From Symbiodinium sp. CCMP2592 (taxonomy: Eukaryota; Sar; Dinophyceae; Suessiales; Symbiodiniaceae): 64,000 nucleotides of DNA. Location: the NCBI GenBank assembly GCA_905221615.1, contig CAJNDT010004557.1:1359001-1423000 (forward strand), written 5' to 3'. Below, piece after piece: positions 32,541-64,000 of the stretch; the first letter of the stretch is position 1; every line of letters begins with the position of its first letter. The notes beneath the pieces were generated by a model. It was not told where the DNA came from, ran no database searches, and saw only the letters and a list, made by a program, of their open reading frames with translations. The translations under genes and the position numbers were made by a program.

Positions 32541-32559
32541 GCAAGTATAGTGTGCAGGA

Positions 32560-33602: not shown

Positions 33603-33689
33603 TCGTTTATAGTCCTTTTCATCGTGAGGTCCTTGTTCTTCGTCTTGTCCTTGCTGCTGCTGTCGGCCGCACAGGACACAGGCGATGCT

Positions 33690-33717
33690 TAGGGCTTTTA
33701 GGGTTTAGGGGTTTAGG
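33690..33717 (+). repeat. Telomere-like tract, left flank of element 1
   Basis: TTTAGGGTTTAGGGGTTTAGG ends directly at the left LTR. Its last five bases (TTAGG) are repeated immediately after the right LTR. Confidence 0.9.
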
Positions 33718-33980
33718 TGATGAAAGCCCTGAGCCTGTCAGCTCTGTGTAATTACATGCGTGCCACGAGACCTTGATGGTCCAAGCTTTGCGGAGTGCTA
33801 GAAGACTGTAGTCAGTGTGAAGCACGGCAGGTCCTAGCAAGCATAGCAGTCCCAAGAACGGCAGAAGCCAGCATAGATTGTGCGCTTCGTGGAAACAGAT
33901 TTCTTCGTCAATTCGCTTGCGTTTGCCATGTCGCATTCACATGCTGTTTCTGGTGCATCAGAGAGTGCCTTGCTTCAGCA
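33718..33980 (+). repeat. 5' LTR of element 1
   Basis: 263 bp, begins TGATGAAAG and ends CTTCAGCA, the usual TG...CA termini. It is 262/263 identical to the 3' LTR. An open frame in the gag frame runs through its last 100 bp. No TATA-like box is obvious. Confidence 0.95.
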
Positions 33981-34001
33981 GGGTATGAGCCCAACGCTAC
34001 C
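33981..34001 (+). promoter_or_regulatory. Candidate primer-binding site (Met tRNA anticodon arm)
   Basis: The sequence directly after the LTR starts GGGTATGAGCCCAACGC. Its reverse complement contains GGGCTCATACCC, which resembles the anticodon arm of initiator Met tRNA (CAT anticodon) with one base missing. Drosophila copia is known to prime from a 5' half-fragment of initiator Met tRNA at the same region. The assignment here is by resemblance only. Confidence 0.45.
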
Positions 34002-35934
34002 CGATGAAGATAGTGCTCCAAACTATGGGGCCCTCTTCACGGAGCCACTGCGAACGGAAGGTGAGGCTTCACTCTCAGCACCTACAGCGGCTTTGCCTAA
34101 TGGGGTTCCTAGCGTACCACCACGTGAAGTTCATGGTCTGGACCCCGCTGGCCCTTGTAGCACTGTGAATGATGGTATGGAAGCGCCCAGAGCGATGCGT
34201 CAGATTCCTGTTGATGGAACAGCGTCGCCTACCGAGAATGTGGCCTTGACAGCCTCGACTGCTGCACCGAATGGAGTATCTCTTCCGTTGTTTCCGGCCT
34301 TTCAGCCCTCTCCTCTGCCAGGACAATCACCGGTTGATGTGCGAGAAGGAGGACGTGGACCAGGCTCGTGGTTCACCCGGTTGGGGGATTATATACAGAA
34401 GAGAGTGGAGGTTACTTCGTGGTCCTCTCCACCGGGGTCTACTTCTAACCAAGCGAGTGTGTGGCATAACAGGAGTCAAGTGCAGACTATGATGGTTGCG
34501 TCTCCTACTATGGGAGAAAGGAGGCCCGAGTCGAACTCAAGCGGATCCGCAGGGATACCTCAAGAGATGGTTCAGGCCGAAGTGGCTCGGCAACTGGACA
34601 GCGCGATGAGCGAAGTGATGAGTCGACTGCAGGACGAGAGGCTGAAGACTGAGCGAGCAGCTTTGGAGGCGCGGCAGCTACGGGAACAGCTCGAAAAATT
34701 CGAGATGGCGGCCCAGGCGGCGCCGCCGCTCCCGATTGGTCCCCCACCGGGGATGTTACCGCTGGGTTCGAATGATCATGGAGCTTCTACCGGAGTCCCT
34801 GCGAATCATCCTCTACCTGGTCCTGTTATAGGTTCGGCAACTACTATGGTGCAAGGCAATCAACGTCATCGTGATCTAGAGTATGCAGGTGAAGACGCTA
34901 TAGTTGCAGGAGGCTTAGGTGTACCAAGCGGTGATCGGGCCTTTGCAAATGTTGGAGATACTGTTGCTGAGGGCTCTACTGTACCAGAAGGTGATCGGGC
35001 CTATTTGAACTTGGGTTACAATGTTCTGGGAGGTCCTACCGTATGCCATGGTGATCGGGCCTTTACAGCAGTTAGGGGTGTAGAACCCAATATTTATGAT
35101 CCTGGAGCTTCTACCGGAGTTCCGGCGAATCATCCTCTACCTGGTCCCTTCGAAGAACATGGAGCTAGGTCTCGTACCAGGTCTCAGTCGCCGAGTGGTC
35201 CACGTGCCTTTTTGCAGGGCTTGTTCGGTCTGGGTACAGCTGGTCGTGATGATGGACAAGCGTTTGACTCCAGGGTTCAGTCTGGTTCGAGAACAATACC
35301 TACAACCTTCACACCACCTCCACTTCAACCTCCCTTACCTCCACCACCACAACCACCTACACGTATGGCTACAGGTGCAGCGGCGTCGGCTCGGGATGAC
35401 AGTGTCTTGGCGACTTTGGCCCGAGGCATAGAAGCGCTACTGCAACAGCAACAGCAAGGACCCCGGCATGATCGTCCCGAAACGGTTAAGCCGGGCATCT
35501 CTGAACTTCCCCACCTTCCGGAGTACCAGCCGGCGACGGGGTCGATAGACTTGCTTCACTGGTTGACGCACATAGCACCAATGATGGAGGATTTGTCAGA
35601 TACCAGCTTGCTTTGGTGGCAGCAGACGGTCAAGGACGCCCTCACATGGTATGCCCAGTACTCAGCGGCTCCGCCGTTAGCGCGACTGCAGCTTCGTCCT
35701 CGATCAAGTCATGACCCTCGTCCTGAGTGGGCTAGGGTTGAAAGACGGGCTACAGCAATGATGTTGAGTGCAATCCCAAAGGCGATCCGCGAGGAGGTAA
35801 TCGCTCATGGGCAGATGTCAAGCTTGGATGTGCTGTGCAAACTTTACTCGGTGTACCAGCCGGGTAATCTGCAGGAGAAGTCGTTGGTTCTGCGGATGTT
35901 GGAGCAGCCTGAGGAGTGCACCACGGCGCTTTAG
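33985..35934 (+). CDS. gag: Gag, N-terminal part (element 1), ends at in-frame TAG
   Basis: Gag-like structural protein of a copia-type element, needed in the known families to package the RNA into particles. The frame is open from 33880 inside the LTR. I place the start at the ATG at 33985, four bases past the LTR, although the in-frame ATG at 33928 is possible. Visible features: a Ser/Pro-rich N-terminus; a coiled-coil-like Glu/Arg/Leu segment at about 34565-34720; a tandem-repeat region (34770-35147) with two GASTGVPANHPLPGP copies enclosing three GDRAF/GDRAY units; a poly-Pro/Gln stretch (about 35310-35460); and a globular part from about 35500 (LPHLPEYQP onward). It stops at TAG 35932-35934. 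The next segment continues in the same frame, and its continuation aligns with the Gag of element 2 (LRRW..., then LVRGLDK against LTHGLDQ), so the stop interrupts gag. Confidence 0.85.
   Translation: MSPTLPDEDSAPNYGALFTEPLRTEGEASLSAPTAALPNGVPSVPPREVHGLDPAGPCSTVNDGMEAPRAMRQIPVDGTASPTENVALTASTAAPNGVSLPLFPAFQPSPLPGQSPVDVREGGRGPGSWFTRLGDYIQKRVEVTSWSSPPGSTSNQASVWHNRSQVQTMMVASPTMGERRPESNSSGSAGIPQEMVQAEVARQLDSAMSEVMSRLQDERLKTERAALEARQLREQLEKFEMAAQAAPPLPIGPPPGMLPLGSNDHGASTGVPANHPLPGPVIGSATTMVQGNQRHRDLEYAGEDAIVAGGLGVPSGDRAFANVGDTVAEGSTVPEGDRAYLNLGYNVLGGPTVCHGDRAFTAVRGVEPNIYDPGASTGVPANHPLPGPFEEHGARSRTRSQSPSGPRAFLQGLFGLGTAGRDDGQAFDSRVQSGSRTIPTTFTPPPLQPPLPPPPQPPTRMATGAAASARDDSVLATLARGIEALLQQQQQGPRHDRPETVKPGISELPHLPEYQPATGSIDLLHWLTHIAPMMEDLSDTSLLWWQQTVKDALTWYAQYSAAPPLARLQLRPRSSHDPRPEWARVERRATAMMLSAIPKAIREEVIAHGQMSSLDVLCKLYSVYQPGNLQEKSLVLRMLEQPEECTTAL
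34771..35147 (+). repeat. Nested tandem repeats inside gag
   Basis: A block encoding GASTGVPANHPLPGP occurs at both ends (about 34774 and 35100). Between them a roughly 60-bp unit containing GGTGATCGGGCCT occurs three times (near 34929, 34989 and 35049). The repeat stays in frame. Confidence 0.85.
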
Positions 35935-36936
35935 GCAGTTGAGGGGCTTCGGAGATGGAGCCTGTGGAGACGGAGGGCGGCTTCCTTGGGGATGACGGAG
36001 CCCGATGCGTCGGTTCTGGTGAGGGGCTTGGACAAGATCACGGCGCCCATCATCCAGGGGAGTGGCGAGCTATCGTTCCGGGTGAGCTTGATCAGAAGTA
36101 CTCTGCAGGTGGATGTGAGTCCCTCTTCGTCTACGGTGACCACCTTTCACCAGCACCTCCAGGCCGAGATGGAACAGCAGGCCAGATTCGGAGTGGCCAA
36201 AGGGATTTCGGATGTTTCTCCTGCGATACGAGCGGTTACCACTGGCACCACCGACACTACAACTTCATCACAACAACTACCTACTACAACTTCACCTACA
36301 TCCCCTACTACCAAACCACAAGGAGCTTTGTGCAGGTTCTTCGCCTCCGATAAGGGGTGTCGCCGAGGAAATGGATGTCGGTTCCCGCATACGTGGGCCT
36401 TGTTGGAGAAAGGAAGCCGTCAGAGGAAGTGTTTGTGCTGTGGGTCCACTCAGCATAAGGTGAGGGAGTGTCGAGCTCCCGGAGGTGGCCAGGCAAAGTC
36501 GGCAGCTTCGCGTACTGAGGCGGCGGGTCCAGGTGAAACGGGATCTACGTCACCAACGGCTTCTGCTTCGGACTCCCCGGCGAGGAAAGTGAAGTTTGAT
36601 GGGGAGCAAGTGCAGGCCAAAGTGTTTCAAGTCCTCCAGGAGGTGAAGAACATTCCTTTGTTCAGGTCAGTGATGGACACGGTGAGCCGGTGGGCGTCCC
36701 AACCTGTACCGCCTTCCCCTAGGGCACGATCGGCTTTGTTGGACTCAGGTGCAACCCATGTTCTACGTGCGCCTGCTGATGATCAAGAATGGGACCGAGC
36801 CAAGGATGTGAATGTTCAGTTAGCGGGCGATGGCTATGCGGCCATGCGGCAAACACCCGCAGGTACGATACTCAACGATGACCAGATGGCTCAGGTGATT
36901 GTGCCGTTGGGCAAGGTGATTGCCAATTTGGGTTAA
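35935..36936 (+). CDS. gag-pro: Gag C-terminus with CCCH and CCHC fingers, plus aspartic protease
   Basis: Same frame as the upstream gag segment, open between the TAG at 35932 and the TAA at 36934; the first ATG is at 35986. It contains the end of the Gag globular region. A CCCH finger of C-x8-C-x5-C-x3-H spacing starts at 36331, and a CCHC knuckle (CLCCGSTQHKVREC, C-x2-C-x4-H-x4-C) follows at 36430-36471. The protease has the active-site motif ALLDSGATH, with catalytic Asp at 36742-36744. Such proteases act as dimers to cut the polyprotein. A CCCH finger directly before the knuckle is unusual for retrotransposon Gag, but the same pair with identical spacing is present in element 2. The terminal TAA falls where element 2 reads on (NLG-stop-RLHW against ELRCNVSW), so it interrupts the protease/pol junction. 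Confidence 0.87.
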   Translation, partial: AVEGLRRWSLWRRRAASLGMTEPDASVLVRGLDKITAPIIQGSGELSFRVSLIRSTLQVDVSPSSSTVTTFHQHLQAEMEQQARFGVAKGISDVSPAIRAVTTGTTDTTTSSQQLPTTTSPTSPTTKPQGALCRFFASDKGCRRGNGCRFPHTWALLEKGSRQRKCLCCGSTQHKVRECRAPGGGQAKSAASRTEAAGPGETGSTSPTASASDSPARKVKFDGEQVQAKVFQVLQEVKNIPLFRSVMDTVSRWASQPVPPSPRARSALLDSGATHVLRAPADDQEWDRAKDVNVQLAGDGYAAMRQTPAGTILNDDQMAQVIVPLGKVIANLG

Positions 36937-39900
36937 CGGTTGCATTGGACTTCCAAGGAGTGCTACCTGTACGGCGAGGACGGTGAGATCATCAACTTGG
37001 AGGTGGTCCGCGGATGTCCTGAGGTGAGTGAAGAGGTTGCAAAGAAGTTGATTATGCGGTTAGAGGAAACTCAACTTCCTCAGCTTCAGGATGCCACTGC
37101 AGCATCGGCTAAGGCACTCAGCTGTGTGACGTCGAGTTGGTGGGTTTGTCTCATGGAGTATGTGATGACGGGCAGCGGTGAAGCTGCTAAGATGGCAATC
37201 AACAAGGCCCCCTTCTTACTGTACAAGGATGTGTTGGTGGAGGCCCTGGCAATTTCAAGACCGCGGAAGGGCATCTGGGAGCTGTTGAAGGCCATCAATG
37301 TGAATAGGCGAACTCGCAAGCGCCTGATGAACTCTTCCTCGTGGGTGATTCGTTGGGATCCTCCGGCGGTAGATCGACCTCGGGATGCCTTGAAGCATTT
37401 GGGAATGGCCAAGGAGACCATGTACATCAACCTGAACACCTTGCTGATGGAGAATGAGTTTGAGGATGTGTGGAAGGTTGTGCTATGGGGTGCAATGGAT
37501 GGAAAGATCAGCACCGTCGTGGCAAAGGACAGTTTGGGGTCTCCGATGGACCACGTGGTTGCAGCCCCTCATCGCAGCAAGGTGCATTATCTACATGCGC
37601 TGGCGACGGCAGGTCGGACTGCCCATGGTCAGGGTGCTGTGAGATTGTTGGTGGAGGACCTCCATCGAGTTCAGCGAGATCAGCGCGATGGTGTTGAAGA
37701 GAGTATGTGGCCGGCATGGTCAATGTGCAAAGATGCCAAGGAGTACATGGCTGAAATGGGGATTGTTGATATCTCCATAGCTGAGTTCACGGGCGAGAAC
37801 TATGTGAGGGTGGCCCGTCTTGATGGAGATGCAGCGTGGCGCTTGCATGTCATGCGGGGGCATCAACCTTTTCGTCGAGATTGTTCGGTTTGTGTTCGCA
37901 ACAGTGCCACAGGCAAGCAGCACCGAACAACTATGCACCCGATGGCCTACACGTTGAGTGTAGATGTGGTGGGACCGTTGAAGGAGCATGGGAAGTCACC
38001 AGATGGGAAGTTCTTCAAGTACTTTGTCATTGGCGCCCTGAGAATACCTAAGGTTGAGGGTGGTGATGGACATCCAGAAGTTCACGGGCATCCCATCCCT
38101 CCAGATGGTGTTGATGAAAGCGAGGAGGAGATCCTCTCAGAGGAGGAGCGCGACGAGGAGGAGGCCGTTTCCGAGGGTGACTACTGTGATCCTGCTGAGG
38201 TCGAAAAGGAGAACGAGCGGTGGAAGGAGTTGAGGGCTACGTTTAAGGAGCCCATTGCTACCACCACCTTGTACTTTGCGGTTCCTGTTAACAACAAGAA
38301 GGCTGCTACGATGCTACCGGCGGTGCAGAAGATTGTCTTGGATGTGAAGGCCCTTGGCTACCCGGTCACAAGGTTGCACAGTGATCGTGGTGGTGAGTTC
38401 AGAGGTCACTTGGTGCGACGCTGGGCCTTATCCCAAGGCATGTGGCCTACTACGACATCGGGGTCGGAGTCGGCATCCAATGGAGTCGCTGAAGCAGGAG
38501 TGCGATACCTAAAGCGCAGAGCTAGAGTGCTACTGGATAGCTCAGGGGTGGGTCGGCAGCACTGGCCTACGGCGGTTCAGCATGCAGCAGCTCAACAACG
38601 TTGCGACCAACTTGGAGTTCTACCTGCGCTCCCTGTTGCCTATGGTACCAAGGTGTATGTGAAGACCAAGAAGTACAAGACTGGTGCAGTTGAAGACTTT
38701 GGACCGCATTGGACCCGGGGACGGTATGTTGGACCGTCCACAGACATTCGAGGAGGTCATGTTATACTGAAGGACTCGGGCACCTTTGTACAGACCACCC
38801 ACGTGAGAATTACCAGGGAGCCACCCCCCTTGGATACCATTGCACCGACTGTGGTTGTGGAGCCTGAAGCCATTGAGAGTCCGGTCCCTGGAAGGGAGGA
38901 ACCTCCTCTACCACCACCAGATATCCCTCCACCTGAAAGGAGGCTCCGAGCGAAGACTCCGCGGGCCGCGAAGCTTGACGAGCTTTATGAGCCCTGTGTT
39001 GAGCTGTCTGAGGCTACCCAGGGCATAAAAGGTTCGTTCGAGGAGGAGCTCGAGTTGAAGTACCTCCGCCTGGAGGAGATTGAGTACCTGGAGGGTGTTG
39101 CGCGTGGCTTGTATGAGGGTAAGAAGTTCTCCAAAAATGATGGCCACAAATTGTTGAGTTTGTTTGCGGGGACCTGTGGCAATTTAAAGGTCCCACGTGC
39201 TCCAGAAGGGCAAGGCTTGGTGCTGGGTGCCTTTGTTCATGGAGGGTCATTTGGAGTGACTCGTTATGGTCGAGACCTACCATGGGTCATGAAGTACTTC
39301 AACACGTACCTCTATGAAAGGATGAAAGCTCGTTGGCCACATGTGCGTCCCACTTGGACTACTCTAGCCCTTCAATGTGCAGAGACTATTCCTCGTCACC
39401 GTGATGTTCACAATGAGAGAGCGACGTTTAACTACGTTGTGGAACTGAAGGCTGAGGATAAGGGAGGGCTGTGGGTTGAAGACAAGGGCCTCGAGCGCGG
39501 TGTCGTTGGAGGTGAACGTTTGGAAGACTTTCAGTATGAGGCGCAGGACGGTGCGGTGTATGACGGTTTTGTGGTTGATATCACAGAGCAGCCAGCGGCA
39601 TTTAGTCCTATGACCCCGCACGCCTACGTCACGAATGGTCATCGACGGTGGTTCTTGAGTGCCTACACACCACAGGGGTTTTCTCGGTTGAGTCTTGGTG
39701 ATCAACAATATTTGCAACGTGCTGGGTTTCCTCTTTGTCAAGAAGATGAAGATAACCATGGAGTGCGGGAAGAGGCTCCTGCACTAAAGGCTGCTGACTT
39801 ACCTTGTGGGACTACGTTGAGCGGAGCTCATGGTGCCCCTCGAGATGTGGAAGTAGCTACTGTGGGTGATTGTGAAGGAAGCTTCAGCGACTGGGCCATC

Positions 39901-41484
39901 TACGTTGAGGACTATGTCGAGGAGGAGGCAGATCCGGGAGAATGTGAGCAAGTACGATGCTTGAGGAGGATTGGTTCTTCCGATGATCCTGGTGATGAGC
40001 TTTGGTCTTTGGTTGAGGCATCGGAGCTGTTGTCCGAGGAACAGGTTGGCCCAGAGGTTGTTGAGAACTTTGGTGAGAGGCTGGAGCATTGGAGCTCTAT
40101 GGGAACTTTGGAGGTTCCAAGGATTGCAAAGCTCGAGCCTGAGTACACCCCAGGCATTGAGGAGATCATCAAAGGAGCAGTGGAGCAGCGGTGTCCGCTT
40201 CGCCATACCTACAATGTGAGCCCACATGAGGCTAAGGCGGAGATTGAAAAATGGCGGGCCGCGATAGCCAAGGAGGTGGGAGTCGTTGAGAAGGGATTCA
40301 AAAGGATCCGGGCCGACGAGGTCAATGAGATGAAGAAGGAGTTCACTGTACAGGAGTTGCCCTCAAAGTTAGTGTATACCGTGAAACCTCCGAACACCAC
40401 ACCTACTACAACTTCAGATTCGGAGGATGAGAGTTTGTACTGTCGTCGCAAGGCTAGGGTGGTGTGTTGTGGCAACTTTGCAGACGAGGAGGGTTCCGAC
40501 CTCTTCGCCGGAGGCATCGCCGCCGAGAGCATGAGGTGCGTGCTCGTGTACACGGCAGACCAGGGCTGGATGGTTGGAATAGTTGATGTTACTGGAGCAT
40601 TTATGCTCACTCCGCTCCCCCAATCACAAGGGCAAGTTCGTTACATTATACGCCCACCAGCTGCTTTGGTGGCTCTCGGTCTAGCTGACCGAAACGAAAG
40701 GTGGCTGCTAACGCATGGCATGTACGGCTTGCGTCAATCGCCCAGGCTTTGGGCAGACTACCGCGACACCGAGCTGAAGAATATCACTGTGGAGTATGAC
40801 GACAAGGTCTGCGGGTTGAAGCAGGGTGTTGCAGAGCCGAATATGTGGTTGGTGTATGAAGTGGGAGCACCGCTAGATCGACCCCCTGAAGGCTTGATTC
40901 TGGTGTACGTTGATGATATAATGCTATGCGGACCTAGAGGTTTGGTGTGTGCGGTGGCGGCTAGAATTTCTCAGTTGTGGAAAACTTCGGAGCTGGAGTT
41001 GCTGACTGCAGAGCACGACCTACGGTTTTTGGGGTGTGAAATATCAACGTCCGAGGATGAGAATGTGTTCTACCTCCACCAGCGGCCTTACATTGATGAA
41101 ATTCTTCGCCATCATGAGGTTGCGGCTACTATGCTGTCACAAGTGCAAGCTCCGCGGGATATGGTGACCTTTGAAGCCTTTGAAGGAGAATCCCCGGGCA
41201 CTCCCGAGGAAATTAAGGCCGCACAACGGCTGTGCGGCGAGCTGTTGTGGCTTGCCCAGCGTTCAAGGCCGGACATATGCTACGTTGTCAGTGCTATGAG
41301 TTCGCTTTTGTCGAGGGCGGCTGTTCGGTGTGTTGCTATCGGTACAAGACTTTTGGCCTACTTGCAGCAGACTAAGAACTTGGCGCTGACGATGAGAGCT
41401 ACCACCAGCGATCGAGCTTATCGCCTACTCGGACAGCTCTTTTGCCCCGCAAGGGAGCCGAAGCTTCACTGGAGTGGTACTTAG
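36937..41484 (+). CDS. pol: Pol: degenerate methyltransferase-like region, integrase, dioxygenase-like domain, reverse transcriptase
   Basis: Residues are counted from 36940. Residues 130-205 align with the methyltransferase-like region of element 2 but lack its glycine-rich motifs. Integrase: zinc site H303/H308/C315/C318, catalytic D342, D482, E518 (D,D35E), with an acidic Glu/Asp-rich insertion at 385-425 between the first two Asp. Residues 735-925 form a 2-oxoglutarate/Fe(II) dioxygenase-like domain: HRD at H820/D822, GG at 842-843, distal H894, and R903 nine residues later. Reverse transcriptase: D1216 in VDVTGAF and YVDD at 1323-1326. RNase H begins but the frame is lost: an extra T at 41418-41419 shifts it, giving a stop at 41482. 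All catalytic residues seen are intact, so loss of function comes from the frame breaks. The dioxygenase assignment rests on motif spacing and on conservation between two divergent elements. Confidence 0.85.
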   Translation, partial: RLHWTSKECYLYGEDGEIINLEVVRGCPEVSEEVAKKLIMRLEETQLPQLQDATAASAKALSCVTSSWWVCLMEYVMTGSGEAAKMAINKAPFLLYKDVLVEALAISRPRKGIWELLKAINVNRRTRKRLMNSSSWVIRWDPPAVDRPRDALKHLGMAKETMYINLNTLLMENEFEDVWKVVLWGAMDGKISTVVAKDSLGSPMDHVVAAPHRSKVHYLHALATAGRTAHGQGAVRLLVEDLHRVQRDQRDGVEESMWPAWSMCKDAKEYMAEMGIVDISIAEFTGENYVRVARLDGDAAWRLHVMRGHQPFRRDCSVCVRNSATGKQHRTTMHPMAYTLSVDVVGPLKEHGKSPDGKFFKYFVIGALRIPKVEGGDGHPEVHGHPIPPDGVDESEEEILSEEERDEEEAVSEGDYCDPAEVEKENERWKELRATFKEPIATTTLYFAVPVNNKKAATMLPAVQKIVLDVKALGYPVTRLHSDRGGEFRGHLVRRWALSQGMWPTTTSGSESASNGVAEAGVRYLKRRARVLLDSSGVGRQHWPTAVQHAAAQQRCDQLGVLPALPVAYGTKVYVKTKKYKTGAVEDFGPHWTRGRYVGPSTDIRGGHVILKDSGTFVQTTHVRITREPPPLDTIAPTVVVEPEAIESPVPGREEPPLPPPDIPPPERRLRAKTPRAAKLDELYEPCVELSEATQGIKGSFEEELELKYLRLEEIEYLEGVARGLYEGKKFSKNDGHKLLSLFAGTCGNLKVPRAPEGQGLVLGAFVHGGSFGVTRYGRDLPWVMKYFNTYLYERMKARWPHVRPTWTTLALQCAETIPRHRDVHNERATFNYVVELKAEDKGGLWVEDKGLERGVVGGERLEDFQYEAQDGAVYDGFVVDITEQPAAFSPMTPHAYVTNGHRRWFLSAYTPQGFSRLSLGDQQYLQRAGFPLCQEDEDNHGVREEAPALKAADLPCGTTLSGAHGAPRDVEVATVGDCEGSFSDWAIYVEDYVEEEADPGECEQVRCLRRIGSSDDPGDELWSLVEASELLSEEQVGPEVVENFGERLEHWSSMGTLEVPRIAKLEPEYTPGIEEIIKGAVEQRCPLRHTYNVSPHEAKAEIEKWRAAIAKEVGVVEKGFKRIRADEVNEMKKEFTVQELPSKLVYTVKPPNTTPTTTSDSEDESLYCRRKARVVCCGNFADEEGSDLFAGGIAAESMRCVLVYTADQGWMVGIVDVTGAFMLTPLPQSQGQVRYIIRPPAALVALGLADRNERWLLTHGMYGLRQSPRLWADYRDTELKNITVEYDDKVCGLKQGVAEPNMWLVYEVGAPLDRPPEGLILVYVDDIMLCGPRGLVCAVAARISQLWKTSELELLTAEHDLRFLGCEISTSEDENVFYLHQRPYIDEILRHHEVAATMLSQVQAPRDMVTFEAFEGESPGTPEEIKAAQRLCGELLWLAQRSRPDICYVVSAMSSLLSRAAVRCVAIGTRLLAYLQQTKNLALTMRATTSDRAYRLLGQLFCPAREPKLHWSGT

Positions 41485-42547
41485 TTGGAAGGGTTCGCCG
41501 GTGTCATGGAGGGCGGCCAAACAGCCGTTCACTTGCTTGAGCACGGCGGAATGCGAGTTGGTGGCGTCGATTGAGGCTCTGACGATGGCAAAGTCATTGG
41601 AGGCGATTGTCAACCAGCTGGAGCCGCAGCCCCGGACGATCATTCTGGGAATTGATAATCAGGCGACCATTGCGATCGCACAGCCGTCTACTACAGCCTC
41701 GTGGAGGACAAGGCACCTACGTGTGAGGGCGGCCTACATACATGAGCAGGTTGAATCGAATCAGGTTCAAATCCGGTATGTTCCGGGGAAACAGCAGTGG
41801 GCGGACCTACTCACCAAGAGCTTCCCTCGGCAGCGCTTATTTGAGCTTACTGGCCTGTGGGGTTTTGTGGATCGTGTTCATGAAGCTTCTAAGAAGGCGG
41901 TGGTGAAAGCGATGTTGATGTGTATGGTGGTCCAGACTACCCGCGCTCAGGAGCACCCGGAGCCCCTTGCTATCAATACCTCCCTCGAGCTCTACGTGAT
42001 GATCCTGGTGCTGGGTATAGCGGTGGTTGGACTTTGGGAGTTCATATGGCTATGCGTCGATCGGTGTTGTACGAGGCCTGAAGAAACCCGGACAGCGCGC
42101 AGAATGAGGCGGTTACAAGAGGCTGTTCAACGGGAGCTGGAGACCCAGATCAACGAGGCAGCCGCTTCACCTACCGGGACCAACCGTGGACCTCCAACTA
42201 CTCCACCAAGACCAAGGAGGGCATCCACCTCTATGTCATCATTATCAGCCCCCTCTTCGGTGCTGAATTCTCCTATGCCAAGGAGACCGTGTGTAGCTAA
42301 TGCTGCTACTCAGACCGAGATCAATGAGGACTATGTGCCGATTGTTGAGTACCTTGACCGCGATGTACCGGTACCTGTCCCAGTTCGCGAGTGGCACCCC
42401 GGACCACTTTATGTCACCCCTCATGGCGATACCTTTCATACCCATGAACGATGTTGGGGATTGAGGAATGCTAGATCGCGTCCTTTGCGATTCTGCCAAC
42501 GTTGCCGTGATAATGGTGGTCATTCACTGCGCGAACGCCATGGGTGA
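41420..42547 (+). CDS. pol: RNase H and C-terminal membrane/zinc extension (element 1, frame-shifted end of Pol)
   Basis: The frame is one base off the upstream Pol. Reading from 41420 gives IAYSDSSF with the first RNase H Asp at 41432-41434, then STAECE, GIDNQA and QWADLLTKS with the remaining acidic residues. RNase H removes RNA from the RNA/DNA hybrid during reverse transcription. After RNase H come about 220 residues not usual for copia: a hydrophobic segment (LELYVMILVLGIAVVGLWEF) fit to span a membrane, a Cys-rich stretch just after it, a Ser/Pro-rich linker, and a C-terminal patch FHTHERCWGLRNA...CQRC with zinc-site-like spacing. The patch resembles small Ada/ComEC-type zinc motifs, but I cannot assign it. 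Element 2 also has a membrane segment after RNase H but a different C-terminus. Confidence 0.83.
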   Translation: MAYSDSSFAPQGSRSFTGVVLSWKGSPVSWRAAKQPFTCLSTAECELVASIEALTMAKSLEAIVNQLEPQPRTIILGIDNQATIAIAQPSTTASWRTRHLRVRAAYIHEQVESNQVQIRYVPGKQQWADLLTKSFPRQRLFELTGLWGFVDRVHEASKKAVVKAMLMCMVVQTTRAQEHPEPLAINTSLELYVMILVLGIAVVGLWEFIWLCVDRCCTRPEETRTARRMRRLQEAVQRELETQINEAAASPTGTNRGPPTTPPRPRRASTSMSSLSAPSSVLNSPMPRRPCVANAATQTEINEDYVPIVEYLDRDVPVPVPVREWHPGPLYVTPHGDTFHTHERCWGLRNARSRPLRFCQRCRDNGGHSLRERHG

Positions 42548-42598: not shown

Positions 42599-42607
42599 AA
42601 GGAGGAG
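42599..42607 (+). promoter_or_regulatory. Polypurine tract of element 1
   Basis: AAGGAGGAG lies directly before the 3' LTR, the position and composition expected for the plus-strand primer. Confidence 0.8.
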
Positions 42608-42870
42608 TGATGAAAGCCCTGAGCCTGTCAGCTCTGTGTAATTACATGCATGCCACGAGACCTTGATGGTCCAAGCTTTGCGGAGTGCTAGAAGACTGTA
42701 GTCAGTGTGAAGCACGGCAGGTCCTAGCAAGCATAGCAGTCCCAAGAACGGCAGAAGCCAGCATAGATTGTGCGCTTCGTGGAAACAGATTTCTTCGTCA
42801 ATTCGCTTGCGTTTGCCATGTCGCATTCACATGCTGTTTCTGGTGCATCAGAGAGTGCCTTGCTTCAGCA
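42608..42870 (+). repeat. 3' LTR of element 1
   Basis: 263 bp from TGATGAAAG to CTTCAGCA, identical to the 5' LTR except A at 42650. It is followed by the TTAGG target duplication. Confidence 0.95.
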
Positions 42871-42960
42871 TTAGGGGTTCAGGGTTTAGGGGTTTGGGGT
42901 TTAGGGTTTAGGGGTTTAGGGTTCAGGGGTGTAGGGGCTTTGGGGGTTTAGGGTTTAGGT
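42871..42960 (+). repeat. Telomere-like tract, right flank of element 1
   Basis: TTAGGGGTTCAGGGTTTAGG and further TTTAGGG/TTTAGGGG variants continue the array that stops at 33717. Confidence 0.9.
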
Positions 42961-43149
42961 CCCGAGTGAATCTTTGTGGCTGAGTAGGTAACCTTTTTGG
43001 AGGCTTAGCGTACTACAAGGGGTTCCTTTAAGAGATGTATAGGGCTCCTACAAAGGAATCTTAGTAGCTGAGCAGGAAACCTTTAGCCTTTTCGGGTTTA
43101 TATCATCCCACCATAATTGCAAACGTGAACCTTTTTGGGCTACAGTTAA

Positions 43150-56283: not shown

Positions 56284-59200
56284 TCACGGTCGCCTTCGCG
56301 CAACTTCAAACTCCGTGCGTCCCGTCCAGAGCTGAGACAGCTTACGAGCCCCACACTCAGTAGTGTCAAGTACGTAGTCAGGCAAATGCCCTTCGTAGAG
56401 ATACCAAGTCTTTCGACGACCTGTCAGCTGCACATACGGAAAGCTGTTGACTATCTCTGCTGGTGCATGAAACAGCTGCGATCTCGACGAGCTGTGGAAC
56501 CGAACCAACACGTGGCTTGATTCATCATAGCACCAGCGGTCAAACGGTCCAGGGTCAACCCAGGCATCAACCCAGCCAAAGCTACTTCCAAACAGCTGCC
56601 TTCCATACAGCCTCTCTTGCTCCATGTGCCGCAAAGCCGCATTCCGGTAGGACTGCACCTGATGCTGTCCTAGTGAGACCGTCTGTACATTGGGCTGATG
56701 ACTGCCAGTGAGGCTCCTACATGGACACAACCTAGCCCGGAACCAACCAAGAGCCCAAGCTCCGCCCTTGACGCCTTTCAGCGCAATGAACTTAGCGACT
56801 TCCCATGCGACAATCAGCGCAACCGCAAGCAAGCATTCGGACTCCAAAAGAGCCGAGAAAGAATCATCATTGTCATCATCCTGGACACGAGCGCCTTGGA
56901 CCTGCCCCACCTGGCTGGCGATAGCCAGTGCAGCAACTAACATGGCAAGTCTAGGGTCAGCGCTGGCCGGTGCGGCATAAACACAACTAGACTCACACTG
57001 CACATGAGTTGCTTCATCATGTGATGCCTCCGAGCCCTCACTCCATACGTAGCCTATCAAGTCAAGGAGAAAGTACAACCGGGATTCTGGCATCGCCTTT
57101 GTAAGGCAATCGGCAATCATTTCAATGCCTGGTAAATGTTGGATCATCAATGCCTCGTCTGATATAGCTTCATGAAAGTGTCTCGCACGTAGTCTGAGGT
57201 GTCTCGTCCGCCACGCTCCTCCGGGAATGATAAGTAGCTGGATGCATGCAGCATTGTCGATACATTGAGTCCACCGCAACTCTTGCCGGCACATCTCCGC
57301 CCAGAGGGGAGTCAATGCTCTCGCTAACACCATATTGTCCACGGCGGCAATGATTTCGCTTTCGGCCGTTGAAAGTGCCGTCAGCGTTTGGCGGCTACTG
57401 TGCCAGCTGACCGCACCGCCTGCGATCACCAACAGAATACCTGTATGGCTTCGGCCACCGTCATCCTGACCAAAGCTTGCGTCCGACCATCCCTCAACCG
57501 TACATCGACTCCGTGCACATCTTAGCGGCTCCTGGCCGCGCCAAGGTTCATCAAAGGAGCCATACCGGAGTTGTAGATGGGAGGTCCTCGCCAGATATGC
57601 CAGCGTCTTCAAGCCATCCCTGTACACCGAAGAAGGGCACCTTGAGCAGTATTGGCCTAGCTTGCTCACGGTGTATGACACGTCTAAACGTGTTTTACCC
57701 GATAGCCAGAGCAGCTCACCGACTAGTTTCTGCGCACGGCGCAGAAGAGGAATACTCAACGTTTCTTCCTCCTCGTAACCGGTCTTAAAGTCCGGAAGAG
57801 AAGACTCGACAGGCAATGCATACCGAGATACCAGATCACTCAAGTACGAGGTCTGATGGAGGTGATACGCTCCATCACTTCCCCGCTCAACCTCAATGCC
57901 ACAGAAGCGCAAACCATCCTTCAGCCAGTTCGGCGCGCTGGTTTTCCAGAGGCCGCCAAACGCCGCTATCATGAAAGAAAGTTCGTCCGTTGCCCCAGTT
58001 AAGAGAAGATCATCAACGTACACTCCCAAGATGGCTAATATTTCTCCCCATTCGTCTCGAAACTCGATACACCCAGTCTTACCTTCAAGAGCTTCCAGCA
58101 CAAACCAGATTGAGGGATCGGCCTCAGATCGTCGCAGTTTGCGCAAACTCTCCCCGGGTCCAGTCCACGACCACTGAGCCAATGTGGAATCACGATACAC
58201 CGACCAATCAGCCGGACTCTCGACGAGTCCATAAAGTGCGCGGTCTACCAGAAGATAGGTTTGGGGATCAAGAAGTCCCGCATCAATTATCAAACGAGGA
58301 ACTGCCACAGCAATCTTGGAACCGTCTCGTCGCCGAGCTGGCGCAAGCAAAAACGCCGTTTTGACGTCAATGACTACTCCATCCCACCGAGAACCTGCTG
58401 CCCATCTCAGTTGTAACCGCAAGCTTTCAGCCTCCAAGCCACTGGCATAAATCTCTCTCCGACTCTCTGCCTTAGCAGCCGTAGAAGAAGGACCTGATGA
58501 ACTTGACGATGCCGGGTTGATAAGGCCTGTATGTGACGACTGAGCGTCCGGGAGGTAATTTCCACAGGCCACTAGACGCGCACGTTTACGCCTATCCGGA
58601 GCCTTAATGGAGAACACCAACTTCCCCGGCACTACCTGCACCCTTACACCACTGGCCTCTAATTCCTGCAACTCCGCCTTCGTAATCAAACGGACAGCCT
58701 GATGCACGGTAATCAAAGCAGTAAGCTCCTCCGCGATTGCATCCTTCCATGCAGACAAGTCCTGCCGCACTTCATTTAAGGAAACCTGTTGAGTTTGCAG
58801 CAAGATATCCGGAGCAGGCTCCCCAGTGATGGGAAGATCGTTCGTCCCCAACTCTTCAAGCGCAGCCTCAACCTGCAACTGCATAAGGGTCCTAGTCGTG
58901 ACATCCAAATCGGGATCGATAGCCTCAGCCAACTTCCTAAGCCGGACTACCTTAATCATCCTGCTTGTGGGTTCCACTATCATGTTTTCGTACTGGGCCA
59001 TCCACCCAAGCACTGACATGGCATTTTGCGACTGATAGTCACATCGGTAAGTTCGGAATGAATCACACACACCACGATAACCAGCATAATAGTCCAGCAT
59101 ATCATGGCGGTCACCGCATTCAAAGGCAGCCTCAAGACTCCCCCCCGATGTCCGATCGGGTGGCCCCGCACTTGCTGACACGGCACACACAAAGTATCGG

Positions 59201-62200
59201 GTGCTATCCTCTCCTAGCTCCTGTCCTGGCTCTACTGCCGCGCACGGGCACTCTAGAGCACCATCTGTACCGCGGACTCCCCCATGTTGCACTTCATCTT
59301 GGACTCTAGCTTGCAAGGCCCTGACAGAAGGTTTCAGTGCCAAAGGGTTGGGGCGATACGGAGCAGGAACGTTAAAGCCTAAGGACAACAAATTGTGAAT
59401 GTCTAGAACGGACAGCTTTGCAGCAAAACCCGGAGTGTACGCAACGACAACCAACCTAGGTCCTATAGCTGGCTCCACGCCATGAGGAACAAGCGGATCG
59501 ATGTAGGCCTTGCCACCGCTGTACTCCAATGGCCCATCCGGTGTAATGACTCTGCCCCCCGCAAACTCCGAAAGACATACGACCATGTTTCGGTAACCAT
59601 GCTGATTATGAACATCTCGATGCAATTCAGCCACTGCATTAAACGAAATCCGCAATGCTGTATACTCGTGCGCGGCATCGAAGCTCGCAACCAAGCGATT
59701 GAGCAGCCTAAGCAACGTGGGACGCACCTTAGTAGCCGTAATAAGGCCAACCTGCGATCCTCGGCAGAACGCCCCGAAGGAGATAACCCACGAAAGAGAG
59801 TTGCCCAGCACATCAGAATCAATGCTTCGGCTACCCTTCTTAGCTGTGCTGCACAGAGATGTATACACTACGCTCGCAACTTCAAGGGTGTCCAACTGAT
59901 GCTTTTCCAACATGGTTTTGGCTACCCCCTCAGACACTTCAACACTAAAACCCTGGTCTCCGCCCCGGATTCTGCGCAATGCCATAGGAGCGAAAAGCTC
60001 AGGAAACAAATCCCCATCGTCAGTGACATCCGCCGCACCCCCGACCACTGTTGCACCCGGTGCCTCATGTAGCCGGTCATGCCCGGCTTCCGACACACGT
60101 GCAACCTCTCCACCTACCACAGCTAAGTCTCCTAAAGCAGCGTCCGTATCCCTCGGGGTTATCAGGCTTGTCTTGCCTCGAGTCCGACGGTCGGGATCAA
60201 CCCGCCAAACCTCGCCCGGAAGGGTAATTGGAAGAGCGTTAAACGGTCGGTTCAACCTGATAGTTGTAGATACCAGTAATTTCGGATCATCAAGAGGCTC
60301 CAATGCAATGGTGTAACCCTTCGGGGTGTAACTGGAAGGACCCACGATGAAACCGTTGACAAACCGACTGGACCAGTGATTCTCTTCATTCTTCTTCTCA
60401 CGTACACACACCTGCGTGGCCCAAGGAATTAAAGATCTGACTGATGTATCAAATTTGGCAAGCTCTGAGCGCAAGAGGCCCTCTCCGGCATCCAGCGCGG
60501 CAAGCGACCAATAAGAAGGACCAAACCCTGGAGGAGTGGAAAGACGAGAACGAATAGCAGCCTTGATCAACCCTACGGCCGATTCTGCTCGTCCCTTGCT
60601 TGAAGGATCATGTCCCTCCGTGCAAGTATGAACAAGGTTATGGCTGTCAGCTACATTCCGCACCATCCTGTTCATCCACTCTCCTCCCCTATCCGTGTGC
60701 AATCGCAAGACCGGAAAATGCCACTGATGCAGTTTCGTCAGAGTTCGGGATAACGCTGCCGAAACCTCCTCCTTGGTACGCCTCGGAAGCGTTTCAACAA
60801 ACACAAGGCGCCGCATGCTAATTCCATCTACTTTGGTAGCATAGCACTGCTTCCAAAACCTAGTGTTGTCCTCTGCCTCTTCTTGGCAAACTCGGCACAC
60901 CTTAGGAATCGCATCAACCGCCTCTGTATCAAAGAACCCTGCATCATCAGCCTCGGGCATACCTTCATCGTCCGTCACTTCCTTGGGCATCCTGCCTGGC
61001 CTCCCCGATTCCGGATCATACTCAGGCACGCCTTCATCGTCTGTGACTCCTACCGGCATCCCACCTGGCTTCCCCGATTCAGGATCTACGTCATCATCTG
61101 ATGGTTCATACTCCATACAGTCCTCCGGAATCGCTCCATCCGAAGGCTTACCTACACCATCTATCCGATCAGCTGGGCTCTGTGGTTGCGTACTGTTGGG
61201 ATCTGCGTCATCTTGAATCCCAGCCGCCTCCGAAGGCTTACTACTCTCCCACAGAAATTCCTGAGTCTCTTCATCTATAGGAAAAGTGTAGCAAGCAACA
61301 AACAGATACCTCGGCTTAGGCATACACTTCAAAGGCGAGAGCTCAGATAACCCAGCAACATACGGCCCTCCAAGATCAGCAGCCAAGCTGAATGAATCCA
61401 CTGTGGGACCCCGGCTACGATGAGGTCTCCTCTTCCCCGCCCCCCGTAGGCACTCCCGGCAATCAGCGCGATACGGAAAATGACCTCTCTCTACATGTTT
61501 CTTGTACTCCAACTCAGCATCACTCAAACGAATCGCCGACAATCTGTGCACATGCAGCCTCATTGCAGGAGGCCGATATTGCCCTGGTCTTTGACGTAAT
61601 GGTCTTATCCTTGGGATCACCTGTTCCGGAAACTCCCCGCGATCCTCAACTAGCCACTGCCGCACCTCAAGCAATGAATCATGTGCCCCGCGCGACGCTT
61701 CAGTAATGTAAGTACTCTGCTCATATGCACGCCTACGCCTGTCCTCGGCCTTATCTGTGATCCAGATGTCCCATGCCTTCAGAACCGCCAAGACCAGCCC
61801 AGGGGCCGACCGATCATGATGCCGATGCCGATTCAACAGGACACGACGATGCAACAAAACATACAAGTCCCACGATGTTGTGAGAATACCTACAGGTTTG
61901 GGTTGAGTGGTGCCAAAGAAGCCCTGATCACACTCCGCAGTCCTGAAACCAGCGATCTGGCTAAGCTTGTTCATTATGGGCCATCCGGGAAAGGCTGTGC
62001 TTTCATACCTGGATTCCTCGGGATTAGAAAACCCATCACGATCATGAGCATTATCATTCTCATCATTTGGCATCAGGTCATGGTCAGAAGCCGTGAGTGC
62101 GACAAAAGTGTCACCATGAACAGCTTGCGCTAGGGCACAAAGTCCGAGGGCCCTCATCGACAGGACAGCGTAGGACCCCCTGCAATCAGAAGGTTTTGGC

Positions 62201-63531
62201 AATCCACCAACTACCCCCCGAATCAAACCCAACTTGGCGAGCCTAGTCAAATAGCTCCAAACCCCGTGGCTCAGAAGGTCATGGCCGTTTGCAACGTCAA
62301 TCGAAAGCACTCTGTAATCACTCCTAGGGCGATGCACCCAGTCTTGCAAGCCTGAGCACAAATGTACCAACACCCCCTGGGACCTTTCCAAAGATCTCCT
62401 GAGTCGCCGATTCCAAGGAGTCTCATCTCCCGCAATCCAGAAGGAAGGAGTGCCAATAGCCTCAATGACCTTATCCTCTGGAGCATCCGAAAACAGCGAA
62501 GCCATAACACCGAAGAACGCGGAATCAAAATCTCGCAACCAATCATCCTCGCGCCCTGCCACAAGAACTTCGCGAGCACTGCGCTTTAGACTGGCCCAAA
62601 CCTCTGTAAAGTCCAACTGCTGACGATCGCTTATGAGTCTCAACCGCGCCGCTTGAATAAGATTGACGGCTCTGTGAATCTCCAACTCTTGAATAAGTTC
62701 TAGCGCGACCGACCTATCAACATAAGGACACTGGTCAATCATGGTGATGTCCAACCACCCCCTGCCCGGATGCCATACTCGGCACAATGAGCCCTCCCAG
62801 CTCACATTGCACCTTAGTTCACTAGCCAAACAACCCATCGGCACTATGGGGTCCACCTCCACATCAGAAAGCAAAGTGCCAGTTCTGTTTATCCAAAGCC
62901 GCGTCTCTCCTGATGCCAATGTTACATTTACAACCCTCGCATGGTCAAGCTCATCCATCATGGCAGTTCTTAGGGGGTTCGTAGCTCCCCCATCCAAAAG
63001 TCCCATAGCCTCAGGTACCGGCGGATTGGGCACATAAGCATCGGTAGAGCTCGCAGCCCTCATGGCCGACAACTTCGGTTGAGAGGCCGTGACTGAGGAA
63101 AGCCGAAGGCCCTGCAGCATAGCCTGAGCATTAGCCAAGATCTCCTCCGGTTTCATAGCAGCAGCCTTTGGATTAGGGACTTCAGGGGCCCCGCCAGATG
63201 CCTTTGGGCTCACAAGACTGGCTACGGAATCCTTCTGATGAGGAGCAGTTGTCGCGTCCGGTTTGTGTTTAGGCCCTCCGGGCGCCTCGCATTCAGCGCG
63301 CTTGTGCTTGGTACTGCCACAATTAAAGCACCTGTTATCAGCATCACTCAGCACCGCGAAATCATGCTTGAACTGACACTTGTTACCTAGACGGCACCCA
63401 TTGTTCCTGGAATAGAAGCTACATACTCCCTTAGCGGCTACTCCCTTCCCCCCGCTACCTGAAGCAGTGACTGCGCTCGCAGGCTGATTGGATGAAGGAT
63501 TTGCGTTTGAAGAGCCCGGAGAAGCCCCCCC
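56284..63531 (-). CDS. pol: Pol polyprotein of element 2 with methyltransferase-like and dioxygenase-like domains
   Basis: Residues are counted from 63354; the frame is open upstream to the G9 run at 63525-63533, and that upstream part holds the CCCH finger (VCSFYSRNNGC...KH). CCHC knuckle at residues 9-22 (CFNCGSTKHKRAEC). Protease DGGAT at 121. Residues 327-400 are methyltransferase-like: VHLCSG at 330-335, acidic D353, GHDL at 357-360, and GGLPKPSD at 383-390, where C5-methyltransferases have a Pro-Cys. Integrase: H620/H625/C632/C635, D660, D888, E924. An acidic insert (700-810) carries two copies of a DPESGxPGxMP..VTDDEG unit. Dioxygenase-like domain 1160-1335: H1245/D1247, GG 1266-1267, H1291, R1300. 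Reverse transcriptase D1663 and YVDD 1779-1782. RNase H D1958, E1998, D2033, D2082. A membrane segment lies at about 2174-2192, followed by an unassigned C-terminus to 2356. Confidence 0.9.
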   Translation of the reverse strand, partial: GGASPGSSNANPSSNQPASAVTASGSGGKGVAAKGVCSFYSRNNGCRLGNKCQFKHDFAVLSDADNRCFNCGSTKHKRAECEAPGGPKHKPDATTAPHQKDSVASLVSPKASGGAPEVPNPKAAAMKPEEILANAQAMLQGLRLSSVTASQPKLSAMRAASSTDAYVPNPPVPEAMGLLDGGATNPLRTAMMDELDHARVVNVTLASGETRLWINRTGTLLSDVEVDPIVPMGCLASELRCNVSWEGSLCRVWHPGRGWLDITMIDQCPYVDRSVALELIQELEIHRAVNLIQAARLRLISDRQQLDFTEVWASLKRSAREVLVAGREDDWLRDFDSAFFGVMASLFSDAPEDKVIEAIGTPSFWIAGDETPWNRRLRRSLERSQGVLVHLCSGLQDWVHRPRSDYRVLSIDVANGHDLLSHGVWSYLTRLAKLGLIRGVVGGLPKPSDCRGSYAVLSMRALGLCALAQAVHGDTFVALTASDHDLMPNDENDNAHDRDGFSNPEESRYESTAFPGWPIMNKLSQIAGFRTAECDQGFFGTTQPKPVGILTTSWDLYVLLHRRVLLNRHRHHDRSAPGLVLAVLKAWDIWITDKAEDRRRRAYEQSTYITEASRGAHDSLLEVRQWLVEDRGEFPEQVIPRIRPLRQRPGQYRPPAMRLHVHRLSAIRLSDAELEYKKHVERGHFPYRADCRECLRGAGKRRPHRSRGPTVDSFSLAADLGGPYVAGLSELSPLKCMPKPRYLFVACYTFPIDEETQEFLWESSKPSEAAGIQDDADPNSTQPQSPADRIDGVGKPSDGAIPEDCMEYEPSDDDVDPESGKPGGMPVGVTDDEGVPEYDPESGRPGRMPKEVTDDEGMPEADDAGFFDTEAVDAIPKVCRVCQEEAEDNTRFWKQCYATKVDGISMRRLVFVETLPRRTKEEVSAALSRTLTKLHQWHFPVLRLHTDRGGEWMNRMVRNVADSHNLVHTCTEGHDPSSKGRAESAVGLIKAAIRSRLSTPPGFGPSYWSLAALDAGEGLLRSELAKFDTSVRSLIPWATQVCVREKKNEENHWSSRFVNGFIVGPSSYTPKGYTIALEPLDDPKLLVSTTIRLNRPFNALPITLPGEVWRVDPDRRTRGKTSLITPRDTDAALGDLAVVGGEVARVSEAGHDRLHEAPGATVVGGAADVTDDGDLFPELFAPMALRRIRGGDQGFSVEVSEGVAKTMLEKHQLDTLEVASVVYTSLCSTAKKGSRSIDSDVLGNSLSWVISFGAFCRGSQVGLITATKVRPTLLRLLNRLVASFDAAHEYTALRISFNAVAELHRDVHNQHGYRNMVVCLSEFAGGRVITPDGPLEYSGGKAYIDPLVPHGVEPAIGPRLVVVAYTPGFAAKLSVLDIHNLLSLGFNVPAPYRPNPLALKPSVRALQARVQDEVQHGGVRGTDGALECPCAAVEPGQELGEDSTRYFVCAVSASAGPPDRTSGGSLEAAFECGDRHDMLDYYAGYRGVCDSFRTYRCDYQSQNAMSVLGWMAQYENMIVEPTSRMIKVVRLRKLAEAIDPDLDVTTRTLMQLQVEAALEELGTNDLPITGEPAPDILLQTQQVSLNEVRQDLSAWKDAIAEELTALITVHQAVRLITKAELQELEASGVRVQVVPGKLVFSIKAPDRRKRARLVACGNYLPDAQSSHTGLINPASSSSSGPSSTAAKAESRREIYASGLEAESLRLQLRWAAGSRWDGVVIDVKTAFLLAPARRRDGSKIAVAVPRLIIDAGLLDPQTYLLVDRALYGLVESPADWSVYRDSTLAQWSWTGPGESLRKLRRSEADPSIWFVLEALEGKTGCIEFRDEWGEILAILGVYVDDLLLTGATDELSFMIAAFGGLWKTSAPNWLKDGLRFCGIEVERGSDGAYHLHQTSYLSDLVSRYALPVESSLPDFKTGYEEEETLSIPLLRRAQKLVGELLWLSGKTRLDVSYTVSKLGQYCSRCPSSVYRDGLKTLAYLARTSHLQLRYGSFDEPWRGQEPLRCARSRCTVEGWSDASFGQDDGGRSHTGILLVIAGGAVSWHSSRQTLTALSTAESEIIAAVDNMVLARALTPLWAEMCRQELRWTQCIDNAACIQLLIIPGGAWRTRHLRLRARHFHEAISDEALMIQHLPGIEMIADCLTKAMPESRLYFLLDLIGYVWSEGSEASHDEATHVQCESSCVYAAPASADPRLAMLVAALAIASQVGQVQGARVQDDDNDDSFSALLESECLLAVALIVAWEVAKFIALKGVKGGAWALGWFRARLCPCRSLTGSHQPNVQTVSLGQHQVQSYRNAALRHMEQERLYGRQLFGSSFGWVDAWVDPGPFDRWCYDESSHVLVRFHSSSRSQLFHAPAEIVNSFPYVQLTGRRKTWYLYEGHLPDYVLDTTECGARKLSQLWTGRTEFEVARRRP

Positions 63532-64000
63532 CCTGCATCGGCAGGGTTGTTCGCCTTCCCTCCTTTCGGATTGCCCTTCCCAGCCTCAGCCCCTTTTCCC
63601 CCCGCTGCCTTCGGCGCCGGTGGTGGATCATGGACTGTTCCTGACTGGCCTGCACCTTTACCCTCAGCCCTCAACGCTTGCAGACGCTGTTGTTTGGTAA
63701 GTTGCGGCTCCTCACACAAACCAATCGCTGCGGTTTCTAACTCAGCTTGCAAAGCGCGAGCAAACGTACTGAGTCCTTGCAACGTGGGGTTATGATCGAT
63801 GGCACACTGGGTTCTCACGATGTTCATCCGAAACATAACGTGCGGCATAGTCGCCAACAGCTGCTGACACATCTGATCTAAGCCATGTGTTAACAAACTC
63901 ACGTCGGGCAGAGTAGCACCCATCTGCACTGTGCGATCAAACCACCGAAACCATTTGCGCAAACGTGAAACAGCATCCGACGATGTAGTGGCCTGTCCTG
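63438..64000 (-). CDS. gag: Gag of element 2, partial (continues beyond the window edge)
   Basis: The frame is open from the right edge of the window, so the true start is outside; the TTG/ATG-like starts inside are not meaningful. Its first part (WFRWFDRTV, then LLTHGLDQM and FARALQAELE) aligns with element 1 Gag (LRRWSLW, LVRGLDKI, FHQHLQAEME). A Gly/Lys/Ala/Pro-rich linker follows and leads into GGG codons at 63533-63525. Beyond this G9 run the gag frame reads on only to a TAG at 63438-63440, with unrelated composition, while the true continuation (Ser/Asn-rich linker and the zinc fingers) lies in the -1 frame. The protein's functional end is therefore probably the frameshift site. Confidence 0.85.
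   Translation of the reverse strand, partial: GQATTSSDAVSRLRKWFRWFDRTVQMGATLPDVSLLTHGLDQMCQQLLATMPHVMFRMNIVRTQCAIDHNPTLQGLSTFARALQAELETAAIGLCEEPQLTKQQRLQALRAEGKGAGQSGTVHDPPPAPKAAGGKGAEAGKGNPKGGKANNPADAGGGLLRALQTQILHPISLRAQSLLQVAGGRE
63525..63533 (-). promoter_or_regulatory. G9 run at the gag-pol junction, candidate -1 frameshift site
   Basis: Nine G on the coding strand are read as three Gly codons in the gag frame. Gag codons start at positions congruent to 2 mod 3 and Pol codons at 0 mod 3, a -1 shift. A run of G is a valid slippery heptamer. A one-base error or mutation in the homopolymer would look the same. Confidence 0.5.

Follow-up and report, generated by a model that had tools for sequence, protein, structure and literature searches.

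A probable TET/JBP-like dioxygenase domain in the Pol polyprotein of Symbiodinium copia retrotransposons

Organization of the locus

We analyzed a window of 64,000 nucleotides (nt) from the dinoflagellate Symbiodinium sp. CCMP2592 (assembly GCA_905221615.1, contig CAJNDT010004557.1, positions 1,359,001 to 1,423,000 of the forward strand), which contains a Ty1/copia retrotransposon, here element 1, and a diverged copia element, element 2. A first-pass annotation of this sequence had proposed that the Pol polyprotein of element 1 carries a 2-oxoglutarate (2OG)/Fe(II) dioxygenase-like domain in the interval between integrase (IN) and reverse transcriptase (RT), and this proposal is borne out by the sequence motifs, by a predicted jelly-roll fold and by conservation across the family. 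The features of element 1, in window coordinates, are:

33717..33980, + strand: 5' long terminal repeat (LTR), 264 nt, one mismatch to the 3' LTR
33877..36936, + strand: gag and protease part in a single frame, with a CCCH-type zinc finger and the protease motif LLDSGAT
36937..41484, + strand: Pol open frame with IN, dioxygenase-like domain and RT
39055..39753, + strand: TET/JBP-like domain, a probable Fe(II)/2OG dioxygenase, covering residues 706-938 between IN and RT
39397..39414, + strand: H820-R-D822-V-H-N825, the proposed first two Fe ligands and an invariant Asn
39619..39621, + strand: H894, the proposed third Fe ligand
39646..39666, + strand: R903-x5-Y909, the Rx5-aromatic 2-oxo acid motif of TET/JBP
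40414..41124, + strand: copia RT (RVT_2; residues 1159-1395, E = 8.8e-13)
41396..42547, + strand: RNase H part, in a different frame
42607..42870, + strand: 3' LTR, pairing with the 5' LTR

The LTRs, the order protease-IN-RT and the RVT_2 match are those of Ty1/copia elements, the protease being recognized by eye from its LLDSGAT motif. The RNase H part was also recognized by eye and had no Pfam RNase H match, and the gag zinc finger matched zf-CCCH_4 of Pfam at E = 2.2e-4, below the cut-off. The two LTRs are nearly identical (a difference at 1/264 positions) and thus mark element 1 as a young insertion. Its coding frame is interrupted by an in-frame TAG (35932-35934) and TAA (36934-36936), and an unbroken Gag-Pol cannot be made from it by standard decoding; the database gene model of the same element, P0001, lacks the residues around both stops. 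A telomere-like tract of TTTAGGG-type repeats flanks the element on both sides (33686-33716 and 42871-42970), and a short-repeat tract with a spacing of 8 (GGATGGAC-like) lies directly upstream, at 32414-32545.

Conserved residues of the dioxygenase-like domain

With Pol residues numbered from window position 36940, the residues named in the first-pass annotation (H820, D822, H894 and R903) are in place, together with N at position 825, within the frame open from 36937 to 41484. The motifs are real, and the domain that holds them starts earlier than the interval 735-925 first given for it, at about residue 706 (window position 39055), for a length of ~230 residues. In an alignment of 50 rows (the window and 49 relatives, gaps excluded), H820 was conserved in 48/49, D822 in 49/49, N825 in 49/49 and H894 in 47/47, while position 903 was R or K in 46/48; conservation on this scale argues that the motifs are not due to chance.

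We extended this comparison to 47 copies sharing less than 80% identity, a set that left out L001 (identical to the window) and the partial L027, L028 and L029. H820, D822, N825 and H894 were invariant in all 47, and the HxD...H facial triad was found in 71/71 copies before thinning as well as in 17 diverse rows that include the L051 class described below. Of the four residues put forward at first as conserved, H820, D822 and H894 therefore stand, whereas R903 is kept as R or K in only 38/47 (R in 22, K in 16, neither in 9). The GG turn proposed within KGGLWVED is present, with conservation confined to L844 (43/47) and W845 (44/47). Six residues after position 903, at Y909, Y or F was found in 46/47 copies and C in one.

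Breadth of the family and selection on the domain

The closest database protein, also from Symbiodinium sp. CCMP2592, is 100% identical across the domain. The first protein search returned 50 relatives at E <= 0.001, with identities, besides the window's own, from 86% to 25%; 21 of the 25 non-redundant domains were taken further, P0027, P0028, P0030 and P0031 being incomplete. No named match was found outside Symbiodinium, in searches that require shared 5-residue words and include some nameless rows, so that this is no evidence of absence elsewhere. In a six-frame search of the 1.098-Gb genome, all 150 scored places matched (E <= 1.4e-16), a lower bound given that 150 of 3208 candidates were scored. 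Stops inside the match occurred in 2/150 of these rows, and in many rows the surrounding frame stays open for 2000-3500 residues. Over the domain, the ratio of nonsynonymous to synonymous substitution (dN/dS) had a median of 0.07 in the 24 pairs, out of 220 calculated, that had a dS of 0.05-1.5; some sequences occur in more than one pair. These computed values point to purifying selection on the domain and suggest that it is kept by the retrotransposons.

The domain occupies a regular position. Among 64 proteins, many of them gene models with doubtful introns, the order was IN-domain-RT in 48, IN-domain with RT not found in 8, domain-RT in 5 and domain only in 3. For 36 of these 64, in which each of the three domains was covered over more than 75%, pairwise identities were correlated between domain and RT (r = 0.931) and between domain and IN (0.949) no less closely than between IN and RT (0.947), with 0/999 permutations in the Mantel test; element 2 was left out of this set, and both P0001 and element 1, one and the same element, are in it. 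Such co-divergence with RT and IN is to be expected of a long-standing part of the element and not of a stray capture.

Exceptions to this position exist. P0050 and L058 carry the domain far upstream of RT, in P0050 with an IN (by eye) between domain and RT, and in L057 (G000:C1757:34500-44400) the domain lies downstream of a weak RVT_2 match (E = 0.052). The 3148-residue frame of L057 also encodes, at residues 2455-2642 and thus in one long frame with the dioxygenase-like domain, a KptA/Tpt1 RNA 2'-phosphotransferase (PF01885, E = 7.2e-8, above the cut-off), and frames of ~3187 residues recur many times in the genome search.

A diverged copy of the domain is found in element 2, the features of which are:

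56287..63585, - strand: element 2, a diverged copia element; 2433-residue frame without a stop, starting at the zinc finger of gag and covering the rest through Pol
59341..59910, - strand: diverged domain copy between IN and RT, with H1322, D1324, N1327, H1368, R1377 and Y1383
63998-63441, - strand: extra gag of element 2, upstream and in a different frame, reaching the window edge

The order IN-domain-RT is present in element 2, and no LTRs of this element were found within the window. Its domain has HRDVHN, the distal His and Rx5Y, and in profile comparison matched the element 1 family with a probability of 99.2% (E = 1.1e-19). Three proteins were found as relatives of element 2, the motifs being common to all; two of its relatives, P0060 and P0061, are long polyproteins of 3437 and 3252 residues.

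Predicted fold and relation to TET/JBP

The AlphaFold model of the element 1 domain is a jelly-roll with a predicted local distance difference test (pLDDT) score of 86, so that the double-stranded beta-helix of the Fe(II)/2OG dioxygenase superfamily, on which the dioxygenase assignment depended, is present in the predicted structure. Foldseek searches with the models of the element 1 and element 2 domains gave 55 and 87 PDB matches, respectively, at E <= 0.001. Nearly all of the 50 matches listed for each model are named as Fe(II)/2OG superfamily oxygenases, the exceptions being one thiol dioxygenase and uncharacterized proteins. For the element 2 model, TET enzymes are the top PDB fold matches, and the best VIA rows for both models are nucleic-acid oxygenases.

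A bridge to TET/JBP is provided by Pfam. A search of the genome with Tet_JBP (PF12851) gave four places at E of 2-3e-4, all under the curated cut-off. Each of these places encodes a member of the same domain family, with E values from 7e-25 to 5e-17 for the A1 profile. The domain of L051 alone matched Tet_JBP at E = 4.4e-7 with no other Pfam family at E <= 10, and L044, in a frame with RVT_2, matched it at E = 0.0021, again with no other family. A profile of the L051 class (four sequences) matched A1 with a probability of 99.5% (E = 3.7e-23), as against at most 0.56% for 20 column-shuffled controls. Frames of this class have ~1250-1350 residues, with the domain followed by RT (RVT_1, scoring under the cut-off for L055 and L068 and unlisted for L069) and then by RNase H recognized by eye. 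Judged from these alignments, a second retroelement class carries the same, homologous domain; with the L051 domain as query, the genome yielded at least 150 places, the number scored of 5109 candidates and counted separately from the 150 above, all at E <= 2.2e-32 and with stops inside 4 rows.

An assignment of the class of L055, L068 and L069 to DIRS elements was not established, scans of the three further frames of L055 and of a single L056 frame having revealed no tyrosine recombinase. In L055 (residues ~240-520 of a 1283-residue frame), L068 (3651-2884, minus strand), L069 and P0050, a methyltransferase-like segment follows the dioxygenase-like domain; motifs resembling those of C5-DNA methyltransferases were seen by eye (APPCGT in L055 and L068), the PPC motif being absent in L069, and a methyltransferase identity for the four segments was dropped, as neither Pfam nor PDB supported it.

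The signatures of TET/JBP enzymes are HxD, a small residue two positions after the distal His (Hxs) and an Rx5-aromatic motif for the 2-oxo acid, according to the available text of PMC4150289. The Rx5-aromatic motif is present in the window (R903, Y909), and across the 47 copies it occurs with R in 21 and with K in 16, 10 having neither form. Hxs is found in L051, L053, L068 and L069 (HAT, HAT, HLT and HAT).

Several results weigh against a TET/JBP assignment or an enzymatic role kept throughout the family. The window has HAY in place of Hxs, which occurs in 2/47 copies (L044 and the P0050 row). The best Tet_JBP score of any relative, 29.7 bits for L051, lies below the curated cut-off of 34.9, and Tet_JBP went unmatched by the other nine of the ten sequences in the scan that included L044 and by two members of the L051 class, L068 and L069. 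The window domain has no Pfam family, and none of the 21 members matched a 2OG-oxygenase family; neither single-sequence nor profile searches with the window domain yielded a significant match in Pfam, PDB, PHROGs or NCBIfam, and no related PDB sequence was found in the profile searches. The fold of the element 1 model does not single out TET, ALKBH3 follows TET within 1 Z unit for the element 2 model, and the five models of element 2 include one with a pLDDT of 45. Mean identity over 615 pairs was lower in the domain (0.449) than in IN (0.527) and RT (0.542). Finally, position 903 is N, Q, D or T in 9/47 copies (L035, L040-L042, L045-L048 and L050), all with intact Fe ligands and seven with a shared short deletion immediately before this position, which suggests altered cosubstrate use or lost activity as a possibility for these copies.

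The leaning of the first-pass annotation toward TET/JBP is accordingly strengthened by the element 2 fold matches and the Pfam bridge, but does not extend to strict membership; given the missing Hxs and the Pfam score below the cut-off, we label the domain TET/JBP-like. HxDxxN is also present in PHD2 and was therefore not accepted on its own as proof of TET.

Discussion

Mobile elements with related enzymes are known. A 2025 study of fungi (PMC12730594) describes TET/JBP encoded by DNA transposons and some Helitrons and, in its available text, found no retrotransposon with TET/JBP. As in those transposons, a mobile element encodes a TET/JBP-type dioxygenase in coding regions that are mostly undisrupted; in contrast to them, the Symbiodinium domain sits within a retrotransposon polyprotein, and element 1 has RVT_2 and integrase where the fungal type has a transposase. 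An AlkB domain, and thus likewise a 2OG/Fe(II) dioxygenase domain on an LTR retrotransposon, is reported from Ty3/gypsy elements of two Phalaenopsis orchid species (PMC9289625, available text), there as a separate open reading frame, whereas the Symbiodinium domain is TET/JBP-like, lies within Pol and is shared by copia with one or more further retroelement classes. In the same host group, long interspersed nuclear element (LINE) and DIRS retrotransposons of Symbiodinium carry DNA methyltransferases, reported to be absent from copia (PMC5890265, available text); these are also base-modifying enzyme domains encoded by retrotransposons, but they are methyltransferases, and the words TET, dioxygenase and oxygenase do not occur in the main text of that report. 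With metazoan, Naegleria and Coprinopsis TET and kinetoplastid JBP the domain shares the predicted jelly-roll, HxD, the distal His and Rx5-aromatic, and it differs from TET in its smaller size, in the lack of Hxs in 45/47 copies and in an identity of 11-18% in the structural alignments with TET. A phage source found no support: the A1 scan of viral contigs gave 12 pattern matches and no relative, and phage sequences queried by tblastn with the L051 domain yielded 4 places at E of about 8-10.

A search of the open-licence literature found no description of this domain, within a scope from which the slashed spelling 'TET/JBP' may have escaped and which does not extend to Li et al. (PNAS, 2024). 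By its title, that work reportedly links an enzyme that makes 5-hydroxymethyluridine to transposable-element silencing in dinoflagellates, and whether this enzyme relates to, or belongs to, the retroelement family described here bears on novelty.

We consider it probable, with some reserve, that a TET/JBP-like Fe(II)/2OG dioxygenase has been built into dinoflagellate copia Pol, mostly between IN and RT, is maintained by selection and acts on the element's own DNA. The computed basis for this proposal consists of the predicted fold, the motifs and their conservation, purifying selection, co-divergence with RT and breadth in one genome, from which we infer catalysis, a nucleic-acid substrate, self-directed action and an anti-silencing role. 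Placed in Pol, the dioxygenase would reach the cDNA together with RT and IN, either freed from them or still fused to them within the replication complex. There it may hydroxylate the 5-methyl group of a pyrimidine, converting thymine to 5-hydroxymethyluracil (5hmU) or 5-methylcytosine (5mC) to 5-hydroxymethylcytosine (5hmC), on the element's own cDNA or a newly integrated copy, and the modified DNA could then be treated differently by host silencing. Thymine is somewhat more likely than 5mC as the substrate because the host has 5hmU, which replaces 12% to 70% of thymine in dinoflagellate DNA depending on the species (PMC6723414, available text) and is enriched on repeats in Breviolum (PMC11071213, available text). 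One possible benefit would be evasion of silencing by cytosine methylation, an escape also proposed for the fungal TET transposons (PMC12730594, available text); another would be that new copies resemble host DNA. Should transposons be silenced by 5hmU, as Li et al. say in their title, such self-marking would be harmful unless it limits copy number, which weighs against the second benefit.

As in the orchid gypsy elements, the domain might instead act in AlkB-type repair or demethylation, clearing m6A or alkyl lesions from element RNA. We regard this as unlikely. AlkB enzymes have Rx5R, with a second Arg, in their last strands, and this Arg is absent here, the position six residues after the 2OG-binding residue being aromatic in 46/47 copies and C in one. 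No AlkB-type Pfam match was seen at E <= 10 in the sequences scanned, in a program (HMMER) whose filters discard most matches above ~0.1, whereas the L051 domain and L044 match Tet_JBP alone, and the fold of element 2 leans to TET.

A protein hydroxylase, acting on Gag, IN or a chromatin protein of the host rather than on nucleic acid, would fit the prolyl hydroxylases among the Foldseek matches and the HxDxxN motif of PHD2; with nucleic-acid oxygenases ranking best among the VIA rows for either model, and Tet_JBP the only Pfam 2OG family matched, it appears improbable. Equally improbable is a module that retains fold and iron site for nucleic-acid binding or a structural role in the replication complex, with no selection for catalysis: 9/47 copies are without R or K at position 903, and copies of this type nonetheless lie in long open frames (for example 3380 residues in L041 and 3491 in L042), but Fe ligands kept in 47/47 and R or K in 38/47 go beyond what structure alone would require.

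Returning to a TET/JBP-like dioxygenase that acts on the element's own DNA, a more far-reaching version is that retrotransposons write the exotic base: hundreds of element enzymes would oxidize T (or 5mC) in nascent cDNA, copies would integrate with 5hmU or 5hmC already in place, and these selfish enzymes would be the origin of some of the abundant dinoflagellate 5hmU or of the host's own thymine oxidase. We hold this to be doubtful.

If the proposal is correct, the same elements that silencing targets keep a TET/JBP-like enzyme in their replication polyprotein, and retrotransposons with TET/JBP-like enzymes, a case that the fungal study did not find, would exist. It would then be possible to test directly which party writes 5hmU and for whose benefit, and the finding could bear on how jumping genes and the unusual DNA of a coral-symbiont alga influence each other.
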